In this document: one piece after another, positions 2,481-11,482 of the stretch
Position numbering within the stretch: the first letter of the stretch is position 1
How the letters are laid out: every line of letters starts with the position of its first letter
Source: a virus
DNA: 25,365 nucleotides
IMG/VR virus record: IMGVR_UViG_3300049222_000632
Coordinates: 1-25,365 of that record
Strand: one strand, 5' to 3'
Notes under the pieces: model-generated
What the model was told of the DNA's origin: nothing
Databases searched by the model: none
What the model saw: only the letters and a program-made list of their open reading frames with translations
Position numbers and translations under genes: made by a program

Positions 2481-2624
2481 ATGAGAATAAAAGTATTGGC
2501 AATTATAAAAAATTATTTATTAAATAAAAAAATAAAAGATAAACAAAATAATTCAAAAGAAAAAAATTTAAAATATGTACGAAATAAATATGGTTTTTTT
2601 TCACTTGAAAATAACAAAAAATAA
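2481..2624 (+). CDS. possible small basic protein, 47 aa
   Basis: The frame starts MRIKVLAIIKNYLLNKKI and ends VRNKYGFFSLENNKK. It is Lys/Asn-rich with an amphipathic N-terminus. The surrounding DNA is so A-rich that Lys/Asn-rich open frames arise easily by chance, and there is no Shine-Dalgarno close to the ATG (an AAGGAG lies about 30 nt upstream). The YGFFSLEN segment looks protein-like, which is why it is listed. Confidence 0.3.
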   Translation: MRIKVLAIIKNYLLNKKIKDKQNNSKEKNLKYVRNKYGFFSLENNKK

Positions 2625-2689
2625 ACAATAATAAAAAATTTTACAATTAAATAAATAAATTAATTAAATAATAAATTATTACAAATAAA

Positions 2690-2905
2690 ATGAGCATCGA
2701 AGATCAAAGTGTAAATTTCGTAGAAAATCACATGGAAACGAGTTTCAGCGAAATAATGTCTTCAAAAATCATCAAAGAAATGTATTGGATTGATGTTAAG
2801 GAAGGTGCAAGGGCGGTAGCAATAATGGGCGAAATAACTGAAGAGAAAAAAATAGAGAGTAATTTAATATGTCTCTTTCCAATATTTAAACCAAAAGAAG
2901 ATTAA
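2690..2905 (+). CDS. unrecognised 71-aa protein
   Basis: The protein is acidic at the N-terminus (MSIEDQSVNFVENHMETSFS) with a central WIDVKEGARAVAIMGEI that looks like a beta-strand pair, and it ends LICLFPIFKPKED. Its composition is less A/T-driven than the flanking DNA, which supports real coding. I see no ribosome-binding site and no promoter of the fixed-geometry kind, and I do not recognise a family. It is an isolated gene inside the AT-rich region. Confidence 0.6.
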   Translation: MSIEDQSVNFVENHMETSFSEIMSSKIIKEMYWIDVKEGARAVAIMGEITEEKKIESNLICLFPIFKPKED

Positions 2906-2999
2906 CGCAAATAATTACTTATTAGGATAAAAAATAAAAATAATTAAAACAAATATTATTGTTAATAAAAAAACATCCCACAATTCTAAAAAAGTCATA

Positions 3000-3200
3000 T
3001 TATTTATTATTATTAATTTTTTTGTTTATTTCTATTTTTCTTAATAATATTTCAAATTGAGTGTCACTCATATTGTTATATTGATGCCAAGCATATTCCT
3101 TTATCCTCATTAATCTTTTTTCGGGAGTTCCATTCACCCAATAAAACGCACTAGAGCTTAATAAGTCTCTTACAATGTAATTATATATCTCCATATTCAT
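3000..3200 (-). CDS. unrecognised 66-aa protein on the minus strand
   Basis: I chose the ATG at 3200 (protein MNMEIYNYIVRDLL...). The frame can be opened upstream to 3254, but that adds a low-complexity hydrophobic stretch out of keeping with the rest. The body (SSAFYWVNGTPEKRLMRIKE, then AWHQYNNMSDTQFEILLRKI) is typical of small soluble helical phage proteins. It is the only minus-strand gene in the left third of the window. The family is not recognised and no clear promoter was found. Confidence 0.6.
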   Translation of the reverse strand: MNMEIYNYIVRDLLSSSAFYWVNGTPEKRLMRIKEYAWHQYNNMSDTQFEILLRKIEINKKINNNK

Positions 3201-3266
3201 AATAATAATTACACCCAAATAATTATACAAAAAATTTAATATAATAAAACACACATAAAATAATTC

Positions 3267-3295
3267 TTGACAATGTGTGAAAAATATATTAATGT
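3267..3295 (+). promoter_or_regulatory. sigma70-type promoter
   Basis: TTGACA (3267-3272), 17-bp spacer, TAATGT (3290-3295). Transcription would start near 3302 and give a leader of about 48 nt ahead of the lipoprotein gene at 3350. It shares AATAATTCTTGACAAT with the promoter at 733. Confidence 0.7.
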
Positions 3296-3349
3296 ATTTC
3301 TATCAATCATAAATAAAGCGTTAAAAGCGTAAAACAAAAAAAACATTCT

Positions 3350-3481
3350 ATGAAATATATATTAATTACATTATTATTTTTTATAAGTAGTTGTAGGCAT
3401 TGTGAATATAATGTCAGCAACATTTCACATAGTTGCCCGAAAATAGGACACGGACCTTGCTACCTCTGCGATACCAAATAA
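3350..3481 (+). CDS. small Cys-rich lipoprotein, 43 aa
   Basis: MKYILITLLFFISSC: a short basic N-terminus, a hydrophobic segment and a lipobox-like ISSC with Cys15 as the expected lipidated residue. The mature part has four more cysteines (18, 29, 37, 40) in 29 residues, including CRHC and CYLC pairs that could form disulfides or bind metal. It would be a periplasm-facing lipoprotein. The next gene, 4 nt downstream, also carries a signal sequence, so the pair may act together in the envelope. The size recalls small outer-membrane spanin lipoproteins, but the typical proline-rich sequence is absent and I see no partner inner-membrane spanin, so I make no lysis claim. Confidence 0.65.
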   Translation: MKYILITLLFFISSCRHCEYNVSNISHSCPKIGHGPCYLCDTK

Positions 3482-3485
3482 TATT

Positions 3486-3878
3486 ATGAAAATTTTAACC
3501 ATATTAATCTTATCTGTCTTACCAATATTCGGTGCTATTAATCCTTTTGATGATATAGCAGAAATAAAAGCAAAAAAATTAGACATGAAGCGTCAAGTAT
3601 ATTTCTTTTGTGCTGATATAAATTGGGCTTGCCAACAAATGACTAGCTTATCAAAGAAATGGGATCCCCAACGCATGGGTATTGAATTCACTCCACCGCC
3701 CCTTACCATGCCATTAAAAAGCCTACCCAAATATAAATGGCACACTAATAGCAAAAAATTTATTGATGTAATAAAAGAAATTGGTGATAAATATAATTGT
3801 ATTTGGGAATTTAAAGGTGGTAAAGTTATATTTAAATATGTCGAAAATAAATATATCAAAAATAAAGTTGACAAATAA
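3486..3878 (+). CDS. secreted protein, 130 aa
   Basis: N-terminal Sec-type signal (MKILTILILSVLPIFGA, likely cleavage after residue 17). The mature part has a pair of cysteines (C42, C49), a proline-rich stretch (TPPPLTMPLKSLPKYKW, about 69-85) and a C-terminal half that reads like an STN-type small domain: FIDVIKEIGDKYNCIWEFKG then KVIFKYV. That resemblance is weak and is my inference. It sits just downstream of the lipoprotein gene and probably shares its transcript. The ATG directly follows the upstream stop with no clear Shine-Dalgarno. Confidence 0.7.
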   Translation: MKILTILILSVLPIFGAINPFDDIAEIKAKKLDMKRQVYFFCADINWACQQMTSLSKKWDPQRMGIEFTPPPLTMPLKSLPKYKWHTNSKKFIDVIKEIGDKYNCIWEFKGGKVIFKYVENKYIKNKVDK

Positions 3879-3896
3879 CATATTATATTATATAAT
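3868..3896 (+). promoter_or_regulatory. perfect-consensus sigma70 promoter for the ncRNA locus
   Basis: TTGACA (3868-3873), exactly 17 bp, TATAAT (3891-3896). It starts inside the last codons of the upstream gene and is the only fully consensus promoter I found in the window. Predicted transcription start is near 3903. Confidence 0.8.
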
Positions 3897-3902
3897 GTAT
3901 AT

Positions 3903-4311
3903 ATAAAATTGAGAAAGATAAACTCAAATAAATAAAATAATCTAAAATTTTTGTTCTTTATAGTATTGGTAGACCTCTCCGAGCAGTTGGAAATTGTTGG
4001 AGGCTCGGAGGGGTCGCTTAAATTTTGGAAGGGCTTATAATCCTTCCTGTGGGTGACCCGAATAAGCCTGTCGTGAGCGGGCTAAGGTATGCAAATTCCC
4101 TGTGGTGGGGCGGTAGAGTTCAATCGAATGAGCCGATGACAAATACCATGTCTAATTTGTAGTTGGAAGTAGGTACACCATGAACTGATGTTCACGCCGA
4201 AAACTTGAAGGTATACAGTAATCCTTCCCCACACTCTATTTATCATCCCCCACCCCAACCCTTCTCGGTAACTGCCTAGTAATATCCCATTACTAACCGA
4301 GAAGGGTTTTT
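3903..4311 (+). ncRNA. structured noncoding RNA, about 410 nt, family not recognised
   Basis: No open frame of useful length exists in this stretch; the ATGs at 4148, 4179 and 4187 stop within four codons or lead nowhere. From about 3960 the GC content rises well above the surroundings. Visible structure: a 13-bp helix (3972-3984 with 4003-4015); GGAAGG/CCTTCC (4027-4032 with 4042-4047) whose loop GCTTAT (4033-4038) can pair with ATAAGC (4062-4067), a pseudoknot; GGGT/ACCC (4051-4059); GCCTG/CGGGC (4066-4082); GAACTGATGTTC (4181-4192); GAAGG/CCTTC near 4206-4226; and GTGGGG with CCCCAC. It has its own consensus promoter and ends in a long intrinsic terminator. It lacks the hallmarks I know for tmRNA, RNase P RNA, 6S RNA, SRP RNA and group I or II introns. 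Confidence 0.7.
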
Positions 4312-4313
4312 TG
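4257..4313 (+). terminator. long intrinsic terminator of the ncRNA
   Basis: A perfect 13-bp stem (4257-4269 with 4296-4308, CCCTTCTCGG/CCGAGAAGGG at its heart) encloses a second hairpin (TAGTAAT/ATTACTA). The T-run from 4307 flows directly into the TTGACA of the next promoter at 4316. Confidence 0.9.
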
Positions 4314-4315
4314 TT

Positions 4316-4344
4316 TTGACAACTGCGTTTTTATTTATTATAGT
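4316..4344 (+). promoter_or_regulatory. leaderless promoter of the 4351 gene
   Basis: TTGACA, 17 bp, TATAGT (4339-4344), then 6 nt to the ATG. Confidence 0.8.
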
Positions 4345-4350
4345 ATACTC

Positions 4351-4605
4351 ATGAAAACATTAAAAGACATACTATCAAATTACGGGTACATCAACAGCAA
4401 TCAACTTAAGGAGATAGCAGAGCACTTTCCTGCGTTCAGGGTGGTAATAAAATGGAGCGGGCTCCCCCGCGAGCGTCTTCCAGCCTGGGAGGCAATATCT
4501 AGAATCAAATCTGTAGAGGATCAAGATATCGATTACTGTAGAGAAGTATTTATATCAGGTAAAGAATATAATATATTACTAGACGCCTTTAATATTGCAA
4601 AATAA
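4351..4605 (+). CDS. unrecognised 84-aa protein
   Basis: The sequence begins MKTLKDILSNYGYINSNQLK and has a mixed charged core (HFPAFRVVIKWSGLPRERLP) with no signal or membrane segment. The N-terminal half could be a small helical, possibly winged-helix-like fold, but I see no diagnostic motif. It is the first plus-strand gene after the ncRNA terminator, with a promoter whose geometry places the transcript 5' end at or next to the ATG; no Shine-Dalgarno is present. A 20-codon hydrophobic ORF follows 22 nt later. Confidence 0.7.
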   Translation: MKTLKDILSNYGYINSNQLKEIAEHFPAFRVVIKWSGLPRERLPAWEAISRIKSVEDQDIDYCREVFISGKEYNILLDAFNIAK

Positions 4606-4690: not shown

Positions 4691-4755
4691 AAATAAATAA
4701 AATATAAAGTAAATAAATAAATGATGAAATAAATTTGATTATGATTACCTCCTTG

Positions 4756-4784
4756 ACCCCCACTGTAACAGGTGGGGGTTTTTT
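4756..4784 (+). terminator. Rho-independent terminator
   Basis: CCCCCAC (4757-4763), an 8-nt loop, GTGGGGG (4772-4778), then six T. It closes the 4351 unit and lies just before repeat element E1. Confidence 0.9.
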
Positions 4785-4806
4785 GTTGCACAATTCTACT
4801 GTTTCA

Positions 4807-4890: not shown

Positions 4891-4904
4891 TATTTACTTT
4901 TTAT

Positions 4905-4933
4905 TTGACAGAAACTAAAAATTAGTTTAGTTT
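4905..4933 (+). promoter_or_regulatory. leaderless promoter of the 4940 operon
   Basis: TTGACA, 17 bp, TAGTTT (4928-4933), then 6 nt (TATATT) to the ATG at 4940. The -35 box abuts the T-rich tail of E1. Confidence 0.8.
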
Positions 4934-4939
4934 TATATT

Positions 4940-9241: not shown

Positions 9242-9967
9242 ATGAATCTATTATCAAACCCATCTAAAATGCCTTGCTTAGGCTTTAACATTCCCGCTTT
9301 CAAGTATTGCCCTGCAGCTCAACTCATGGCAAAGGTCAAGGACAAAGCAAAAAAGTTTATTTGTGATGCTTGTTATGCTTGCAAAGGTTTTTATATGTTT
9401 AACAATGTCAAACAAAGTTTGCAAGACAAGGCAAATTTTGTCACCAAGTCTTTACATCGAGACAATGGGCAAACTTTTGTAAATGAGATATCCAAGCAAA
9501 TCAAGGCAAAGTATTTTGACAAGCAAGGCAACAAAAAAGTTTTAAAGAATGTCAACACAGATCTTTTTCGTGTTCATGATTCAGGAGATCTTTTTTCCCC
9601 AAAGTATATCGAGGCATGGATTAAGATTTGCGAAAATTTTCCTTCAATTCGCTTTTGGTTTCCAACTCGTGAGTGGGCAAGAGATAGTCAATTGCCTTCA
9701 CTTCGCAAGCTCGCAAGTTTAAAGAATGTTTGCTTAAAACCAAGTGCTTTATATGTTGATGAACCCGCTCCACAAATCGATGGTCTAGATGCGGGAACTT
9801 CCGTCTATAGCTCAAAAGAGAAAGCTGAGCAAGACGGGCATTTTGTTTGTCCCGCAACTTATGTTAAGGGCGAAGACGGCAAGGTTCTTGCAACTTGTAA
9901 AGCTCATAATTGCAACTTATGTTTTATCAAAGGATGCAAAAAAGGTATTGCATATTTAGCTCATTAA
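9242..9967 (+). CDS. Cys-rich protein of the phage GP88-like family
   Basis: 241 aa. It carries Cys12, Cys23 (KYCPAA) and CDACYACKG (41-49) near the N-terminus, a central VHDSGDLFSPKYIEAW (111-126) followed by FWFPTREW (138-145), and a second cysteine cluster at the end: C203, C219, C224, C227, C232. This layout matches mycobacteriophage gene-product-88-type proteins, which occur in phages of many hosts and have no proven function. The ten cysteines suggest a metal or iron-sulfur centre. The cluster spacing is not the CxxxCxxC of radical SAM enzymes. It has its own promoter; a 59-aa gene follows. Confidence 0.8.
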   Translation: MNLLSNPSKMPCLGFNIPAFKYCPAAQLMAKVKDKAKKFICDACYACKGFYMFNNVKQSLQDKANFVTKSLHRDNGQTFVNEISKQIKAKYFDKQGNKKVLKNVNTDLFRVHDSGDLFSPKYIEAWIKICENFPSIRFWFPTREWARDSQLPSLRKLASLKNVCLKPSALYVDEPAPQIDGLDAGTSVYSSKEKAEQDGHFVCPATYVKGEDGKVLATCKAHNCNLCFIKGCKKGIAYLAH

Positions 9968-10713: not shown

Positions 10714-10977
10714 ATGACAGAAGAACAAAGACTCGCAGTTATCGCTAACGCATATCGTGAATCCAAAGGTTTGCCAACTAATTCCTCAGTATTAGAATTA
10801 GTCGCAGACTTACAAGCAGAACAATTGGTTGTCGAGCATGGATTGAAAGATGTTGAAAGAGATGACATTACAGATGAAACTCAGTTCTTACTTACTGATG
10901 TCGCTGAAGATATTGATGAGGAAGATGAAGAAATCGGATTATCCGATGAAATGAAAGGAATATATTATGATAGTTGA
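10714..10977 (+). CDS. highly acidic protein, 87 aa
   Basis: MTEEQRLAVIANAYRESKGL gives a basic-acidic helix, followed by a long Asp/Glu-rich stretch (TDVAEDIDEEDEEIGLSDEM, about 61-80). Very acidic short proteins in phage accessory regions are often DNA mimics or inhibitors of host enzymes, which is only a guess here. A Shine-Dalgarno for the next micro-ORF lies within its last codons. Confidence 0.75.
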   Translation: MTEEQRLAVIANAYRESKGLPTNSSVLELVADLQAEQLVVEHGLKDVERDDITDETQFLLTDVAEDIDEEDEEIGLSDEMKGIYYDS

Positions 10978-11044
10978 ATTGTTTTTATTATCGCCTTGGC
11001 TTCTTGTTTTTTATATTATGTGGAAAGATATGATAGAAGAATGA
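10967..11044 (+). CDS. predicted micro-membrane protein, 25 aa
   Basis: Frame MIVELFLLSPWLLVFYIMWK then DMIEE: one hydrophobic helix with an acidic tail. AAGGA (10954-10959 region) is a well spaced Shine-Dalgarno. It overlaps the acidic 87-aa gene by 11 nt and the next micro-ORF by 4 nt. Its size makes chance hard to exclude, but the ribosome-binding site and both overlaps favour translation. Confidence 0.5.
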   Translation: MIVELFLLSPWLLVFYIMWKDMIEE

Positions 11045-11097
11045 TGCCAATTTTAATTATATTATCGATTCTACTTTATCTTTATATCCAAGACTAA
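11041..11097 (+). CDS. predicted micro-membrane protein, 18 aa
   Basis: The whole frame is MMPILIILSILLYLYIQD, a single hydrophobic helix. It starts in an ATGATGA overlap with the end of the 25-aa ORF. Together they could form a two-subunit small membrane unit; no function is recognised. Confidence 0.4.
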   Translation: MMPILIILSILLYLYIQD

Positions 11098-11163
11098 ATT
11101 TCTCAAATAGCAAATAACTTTTTTTAGTAGTATTAGTTGAAGTTGTTGGATTAGCCCTCGTCC

Positions 11164-11234
11164 TAAGTGATTGATAATCAAGCACTTAGGGCGGGCGGCT
11201 GCCAAATTCATAAGTCCTTGATTATTAAGGATTT
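11164..11234 (+). repeat. dispersed stem-loop element E6
   Basis: Left dyad TAAGTGATTGATAATCAAGC (near-perfect palindrome through CACTTA), shortened core GGGCGGGCGGCTGCC without its 3' partner, right dyad TAAGTCCTTGATTATTAAGG. A T-tract of about 20 nt leads to the next -35 box. Confidence 0.8.
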
Positions 11235-11252
11235 ATTTTTTTTATTTTTTTC

Positions 11253-11281
11253 TTGCAAGTTTTATTTTTTTATAGTAGTTT
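11253..11281 (+). promoter_or_regulatory. leaderless promoter of the 11288 gene
   Basis: TTGCAA, 17 bp, TAGTTT (11276-11281), ACTTTT, ATG. An overlapping TATAGT at 11271 would give a spacer of only 12 bp. Confidence 0.75.
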
Positions 11282-11287
11282 ACTTTT

Positions 11288-11482
11288 ATGGATAATCAAC
11301 AAGACTCTCTCGAAAACATTGCTCACGCCTACGGCATCACTGATGCTGATCTTGATGAACGCGAATCTGTGCTTGCTCAAATAGCACAGGAAGAACTTGA
11401 AGAGTATGACCGCCAAGCTCTCAAAAAATTCTCTGAAAACGAGGATTTTGACTGGGGTTATCACGCCCAATGGGATTTCTAA
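11288..11482 (+). CDS. acidic helical protein, 64 aa
   Basis: MDNQQDSLENIAHAYGITDA then a long acidic helix (DLDERESVLAQIAQEELEEY) and an aromatic tail (FDWGYHAQWDF). It is a single-gene unit between E6 and E7. Not recognised. Confidence 0.75.
   Translation: MDNQQDSLENIAHAYGITDADLDERESVLAQIAQEELEEYDRQALKKFSENEDFDWGYHAQWDF

Follow-up and report, generated by a model that had tools for sequence, protein, structure and literature searches.

The manA RNA (Rfam RF01745) was found in marine metagenomes, in T4-like cyanophages and in two gammaproteobacteria, and was taken as cis-regulatory, perhaps as a riboswitch (Weinberg et al. 2010, PMC2864571). In Rfam the family carries the type Cis-reg, and the paper on cyanophage S-CREM1 repeats the cis-regulatory view, calling the regulatory role unverified (PMC9964418). 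The literature searched contained no solved manA function, and the searchable papers named no ligand. Another comparable system is the leader of rrn operons, where boxA is necessary and sufficient for the antitermination complex, and where the preceding boxB hairpin is of unclear use (PMC10250234). Non-coding sequence inserted behind a promoter with boxA is guarded against Rho termination (PMC4807359), and according to a work cited in PMC12691694, CRISPR arrays are protected by the same boxA complex.

The window, i.e. the whole stretch of 25,365 nucleotides analysed here (IMG/VR record IMGVR_UViG_3300049222_000632), gave one match in the Rfam scan, manA RNA at 4027-4237 on the + strand, with a score of 79.3 bits and an E-value of 6.4e-19 over the full length of the model (1-192). 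The score lies above the curated gathering threshold of 55.2 bits, by which membership is assigned, and the RNA, which the original prediction had called undescribed, naming a high-scoring Rfam hit as a refutation, is thus at 4027-4237 a member of a known family. A sensitive Rfam scan of the region up to E = 1 returned besides manA only RsaH, below its threshold. The suggestion that the RNA falls in the range of GOLLD or ROOL had to be given up, with no match to either model in the window or region scans and a size much below that of GOLLD; tmRNA, tRNA and other Rfam families gave nothing above threshold as identities of this RNA. A protein-coding reading was likewise rejected, as no convincing ORF was found (the longest inside the RNA region is a 58-aa antisense frame) and relatives conserve structure. 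Folding of the region gave z = -3.7, with 0/100 shuffles equally stable, and the GC content, said to be higher than in the surroundings, is indeed 42% at 3904-4313 and 47% at 4027-4237, compared to 34% in the whole window and 25.5% at 2600-3867; the GC-richest 211-nt stretch in the window begins at 3971. The original prediction was right in its central claim that the RNA is structured and non-coding and is flanked by a promoter and a terminator of its own.

We read the feature, with a probability of roughly 0.65, as a phage RNA gene whose product is structured, stands alone, measures ~410 nt, has manA as its 3′ half and probably acts in trans. The manA family itself is known; what is new is the stand-alone manA unit with an rRNA-type boxA in this phage clade. 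The elements of the locus are as follows.

3868-3896, + strand: sigma70-type promoter TTGACA-17-TATAAT (TTGACA 3868-3873, TATAAT 3891-3896), 12/12
3909-3943, + strand: 5′ leader pseudoknot, TTGAG 3909-3913 with CTCAA 3923-3927 and AGAT 3916-3919 with ATCT 3940-3943, A-rich linker
3952-3963, + strand: boxA-like element TGTTCTTTATAG, 8/12 to E. coli TGCTCTTTAACA
3972-4015, + strand: 13-bp hairpin in the insert between boxA and manA, arms 3972-3984 and 4003-4015, 13 pairs including one G-T
4027-4237, + strand: manA RNA domain RF01745, 79.3 bits, covariation in 34 relatives
4257-4312, + strand: intrinsic terminator, outer stem 13 bp (4257-4269 with 4296-4308), inner stem 7 bp, T6
4316-4344, + strand: promoter TTGACA-17-TATAGT of the next gene (ORF 4351-4605), 11/12

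Relatives were sought in 2.9 million viral contigs with a conserved 15-mer, a relaxed form of it, a second conserved block and the leader; copies were found via conserved sequence, so that divergent ones were missed. Two types can be told apart among the copies: type A, the cyanophage type described before, and type B, to which the window belongs. Type B is represented by 45 loci, of which 34 are less than 95% identical to one another. The window terminase is common to 12 of the 15 long type-B records at 64-85% identity, when the nearest terminase of a cultured phage, among 50,697 phage records, is only about 24% identical, and no DNA similar to the type-B clade was found among cultured phages. 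The clade consists of uncultured marine phages of ~180-206 kb, in which rIIA/rIIB-like, PhoH, gp88-like and L5 gp82-like genes occur. Exactly one manA is present in 14/15 long type-B records, the exception being a contig that breaks off within the RNA gene and resumes further along the syntenic region. Small genes, most often a relative of ORF 4351-4605, follow manA in the main type-B group; in L026, L118, L120 and L122 a PhoH gene lies on the upstream side, and the greater part of the gene block seen in the window was not found.

Two type-B copies reside in MAG contigs assigned to Rickettsiales (L106) and Neomarinimicrobiota (L109), with uncertain binning. The 80,000-base record L026, which carries a type-B manA, also contains a tmRNA gene at 10941-11374 with an unusually long predicted tag peptide. 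Under strict filters, and with no control genome matching either in one of the two scans, sampled proteobacterial genomes gave 0 manA in 369 genomes of one class, and in the 385 genomes of a second class manA only on a previously known contig that has a gene in common with the type-B phage clade.

A search for TTGACA-(15 to 19)-TATAAT on both strands of the 25 kb window returned the site at 3868-3896 as the sole 12/12 match on either strand, in agreement with the original prediction of a single full-consensus promoter, and transcription would be expected to start near 3903. A 17-nt-spaced site of at least 10/12 is present in 30/33 type-B copies, compared to shuffled means of 7.4-8.7. The TTGAG...CTCAA leader hairpin or a variant of it was identified in 27/33 copies, and the six copies without it still keep boxA. 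Among about ten distinct leaders the second stem shows the compensatory variants AGAT/ATCT, GGAT/ATCC, AGCT/AGCT, GGGC/GCCC, GGGT/ACCC, AGGT/ACCT and AGGC/GCCT, and it is fully paired in 9/10 distinct forms (shuffled mean 2.9, in a register chosen by inspection); in single leaders taken alone, the pseudoknot is mostly not significant.

Between the -10 box and manA, 30/33 type-B copies match boxA of E. coli (TGCTCTTTAACA) at 10/12 or better, compared to 0.41 of 33 copies expected by dinucleotide shuffles and 1/33 in equal-length real sequence upstream of the promoter. The rrnH leader of E. coli was read for comparison. Strict matches across all type-B loci lie directly upstream of manA in 23/28 cases. 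An rrn-type boxA shortly after the promoter is accordingly found in nearly all relatives, the window copy with 8/12 being the weakest of the set. In the closing stem of manA, UGUGGG was at one point read as boxC-like, a reading that was dropped.

The insert between boxA and manA varies from 0 to about 260 nt across type-B relatives, with hairpins mostly unrelated in sequence. The 13-bp helix at 3972-4015, listed among the stable helices of the RNA, is present in the window; it lies outside the conserved RNA, and is the window lineage's version of the variable insert. The manA domain itself gave a strong outcome in the covariation check that had been proposed: in 34 type-B relatives, 19/46 pairs carry changes on both sides, and 93.8% of the cells are paired, compared to 42-56% when the partners are slid, with poor support for helix 8 (55.6% paired). 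The idea that manA loops pair with 16S rRNA was dropped as likely chance.

At positions 9284-9768 (- strand) of L182, a syntenic relative, the type-B promoter, pseudoknot leader, boxA and terminator are all present, and the place of manA is taken by a different structured RNA of ~480 nt (z = -4.5), which has no Rfam match and scores 4.2 bits with the type-B manA model. No further copies were found with two exact pieces of it as queries. The RNA could be a manA that has diverged strongly, or else one that has replaced manA, and it shows that a quite different RNA can sit behind the type-B leader.

The predicted 13-bp intrinsic terminator was recovered with its T6 tract and an energy of -25 kcal/mol, compared to -5.9 kcal/mol for the best of 10 shuffles. 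Strong terminators of -14.5 to -31 kcal/mol follow 27/34 type-B copies, and none was detected in the other seven; in L026, a reading frame lies directly 3′ of manA. A new TTGAC promoter is usually located 5-18 nt past the terminator in type-B relatives. Judged by its sequence elements, the type-B manA is thus a self-contained transcription unit of promoter, leader, boxA, insert, manA and terminator. Further along in the window, a second terminator at 4755-4785 and a later TTGACA-like site at about 4900-4935 suggest that several small genes of the region are separate transcription units.

These data bear directly on the established view, in which manA is a cis-regulatory leader or riboswitch that responds to a ligand and so regulates the gene behind it, in the window by way of the terminator at 4257-4312. 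The Rfam type and the original description (Weinberg et al. 2010) speak for it, as do the cyanophage copies, which often stand just before gp32, TalC or other genes, and the type-B copies without a separate terminator. A terminator serving as switch platform, however, would be expected to have an arm that pairs with manA and changes together with it. The pairing of the arms is no stronger with the native manA than with swapped manA sequences (-12.8 vs -13.2 kcal/mol for the 5′ arm, -14.5 vs -14.5 kcal/mol for the 3′ arm), and a terminator-antiterminator switch was rejected. The 5′-UTR position of the original description is also not found in the window, where both a terminator and a promoter precede ORF 4351-4605, and a promoter of its own past the terminator is usual for the next gene, when downstream genes vary and include tRNA-Gly. 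The own start, stop and boxA of the unit argue against manA RNAs as switches for neighbouring genes, and we consider the riboswitch unlikely. As the 5′-UTR position belongs to the context in the original description and is no component of the covariance model, membership in the manA family is kept, and its cis-regulatory label is doubted.

In the cyanophage type, a promoter of at least 10/12 precedes all 22 distinct copies, and the start would fall at the first manA hairpin; no leader or boxA like that of type B was found directly upstream of manA. The neighbours include regA, gp23, ferredoxin, a phosphate transporter subunit, gp32, TalC and others, and gp32 begins within about 50 nt behind manA in many copies. 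In two contigs (L083:5498-5595; L099:9003-9100, - strand), tRNA-Gly follows a few bases past manA under a shared promoter, and RNase P cleavage would presumably free manA from the tRNA. In Prochlorococcus phage P-HM1 (L191:1483-1659), a hypothetical protein is annotated in GenBank over the manA RNA, and similarly in P-SSM4, P-HM2, S-SSM5 and S-TIM4; these proteins are probably misannotations.

A further explanation sees in the unit a site of antitermination serving the early genes behind it, with the leader hairpin and boxA acting like lambda nut, or manA like the HK022 put RNA, and with downstream terminators being ignored. The order of hairpin and boxA fits such a site, most of the main group has a block of small genes reading in the same direction behind the unit, and lambda N complexes are known to resist intrinsic terminators (PMC10250234). 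Own terminators and promoters are nevertheless usual for the genes behind the unit, most of the gene block is missing from the four records with PhoH upstream, and nothing like this leader or boxA was found immediately upstream of manA in the cyanophage copies. We hold this explanation to be distinctly improbable. Least credible of all, with hardly any weight given to it, is a decoy whose abundant boxA titrates NusB-S10 and lowers host rRNA synthesis in infection, manA being a stabilising body: Nus factors are reportedly titrated by NutL RNA at high levels, with a fall in rRNA expression (PMC4807359), and strong promoter and boxA are conserved, but cyanophage manA starts at its promoter without such a leader, conservation of the manA core exceeds the need of a mere stabiliser, and the window boxA is weak.

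The stand-alone RNA gene is favoured over these alternatives. Counted for it are the Rfam match, the covariation, the conserved promoter, boxA and terminator, one copy per genome, and the varied neighbours; counted against it are the window boxA of 8/12, the 7/34 copies without a strong terminator, the L026 frame behind manA, and the closeness of gp32 behind many cyanophage copies, which suits a leader. A role in trans is preferred because the terminator arms show no preferred pairing with manA, the neighbours vary, the cyanophage promoters are present in 22/22 copies, two copies run into tRNA-Gly, and manA is scarce in the sampled proteobacterial genomes. In cyanophages and in the terminator-less type-B copies, manA may still act in cis. 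For the manA class as a whole, it is about an even call that these are trans-acting phage RNAs and not riboswitches, independently promoted in cyanophages and in type B, and that type B is made like rRNA via the host boxA/Nus system.

In the stand-alone RNA gene, host RNA polymerase would start at the near-perfect sigma70 promoter, which probably gives early and strong synthesis. BoxA, behind the 5′ hairpin or pseudoknot, may recruit NusB-S10 and associated factors, by analogy with rRNA and CRISPR transcription, and the Nus complex would carry the polymerase over the untranslated structured stretch and keep Rho from ending transcription there; the element itself is established by comparison. 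A structured untranslated phage RNA meets the same Rho problem as rRNA and CRISPR transcripts, and the parsimonious role of boxA would therefore be to secure full-length synthesis. The manA domain, as the covariation indicates, would then fold, the intrinsic terminator would end the RNA, and the next gene would use its own promoter, as the sequences of most relatives suggest. The released RNA most likely acts in trans and does not control the neighbouring gene; the likeliest mode would be that its invariant loops bind a protein or nucleic acid of the host or the phage.

The manA RNA has been an orphan riboswitch candidate since 2010. If it is an independent, Nus-protected transcript, to look for a small ligand and for a gene under its regulation may be misdirected, and the questions become its binding partner and the timing of its synthesis. 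Beside rRNA and CRISPR arrays, there would then be a phage-encoded class of boxA-protected non-coding RNA, which suggests that phages borrow the rRNA antitermination signal for making structured RNA. The Rfam cis-regulatory label looks wrong for a whole phage clade.

Compared to the manA described so far (PMC2864571, PMC9964418), the window copy shares the full-length covariance model, the conserved hairpin GGUAUACAGUAAUCC and the marine phage setting, but is stand-alone with leader, boxA and terminator, when the described manA is a presumed 5′ UTR. GOLLD and ROOL (PMC12286853) are also phage-borne structured ncRNAs, often near tRNA genes, as manA abuts a tRNA in two cyanophage-type contigs; the window RNA differs in size from GOLLD and in sequence model from both. 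The boxA-protected CRISPR arrays, as they are presented in PMC12691694, likewise have boxA ahead of Rho-exposed non-coding transcription, whereas the type-B unit is without repeats, lies in a phage genome and encodes a single structured RNA. With the E. coli rrn leader (boxB-boxA-boxC) the type-B unit has in common a strong promoter, a hairpin and boxA before a long structured untranslated RNA; its product is a phage RNA of ~410 nt and not rRNA, and the third base of its putative boxA is A or T, where E. coli rrn boxA has C.
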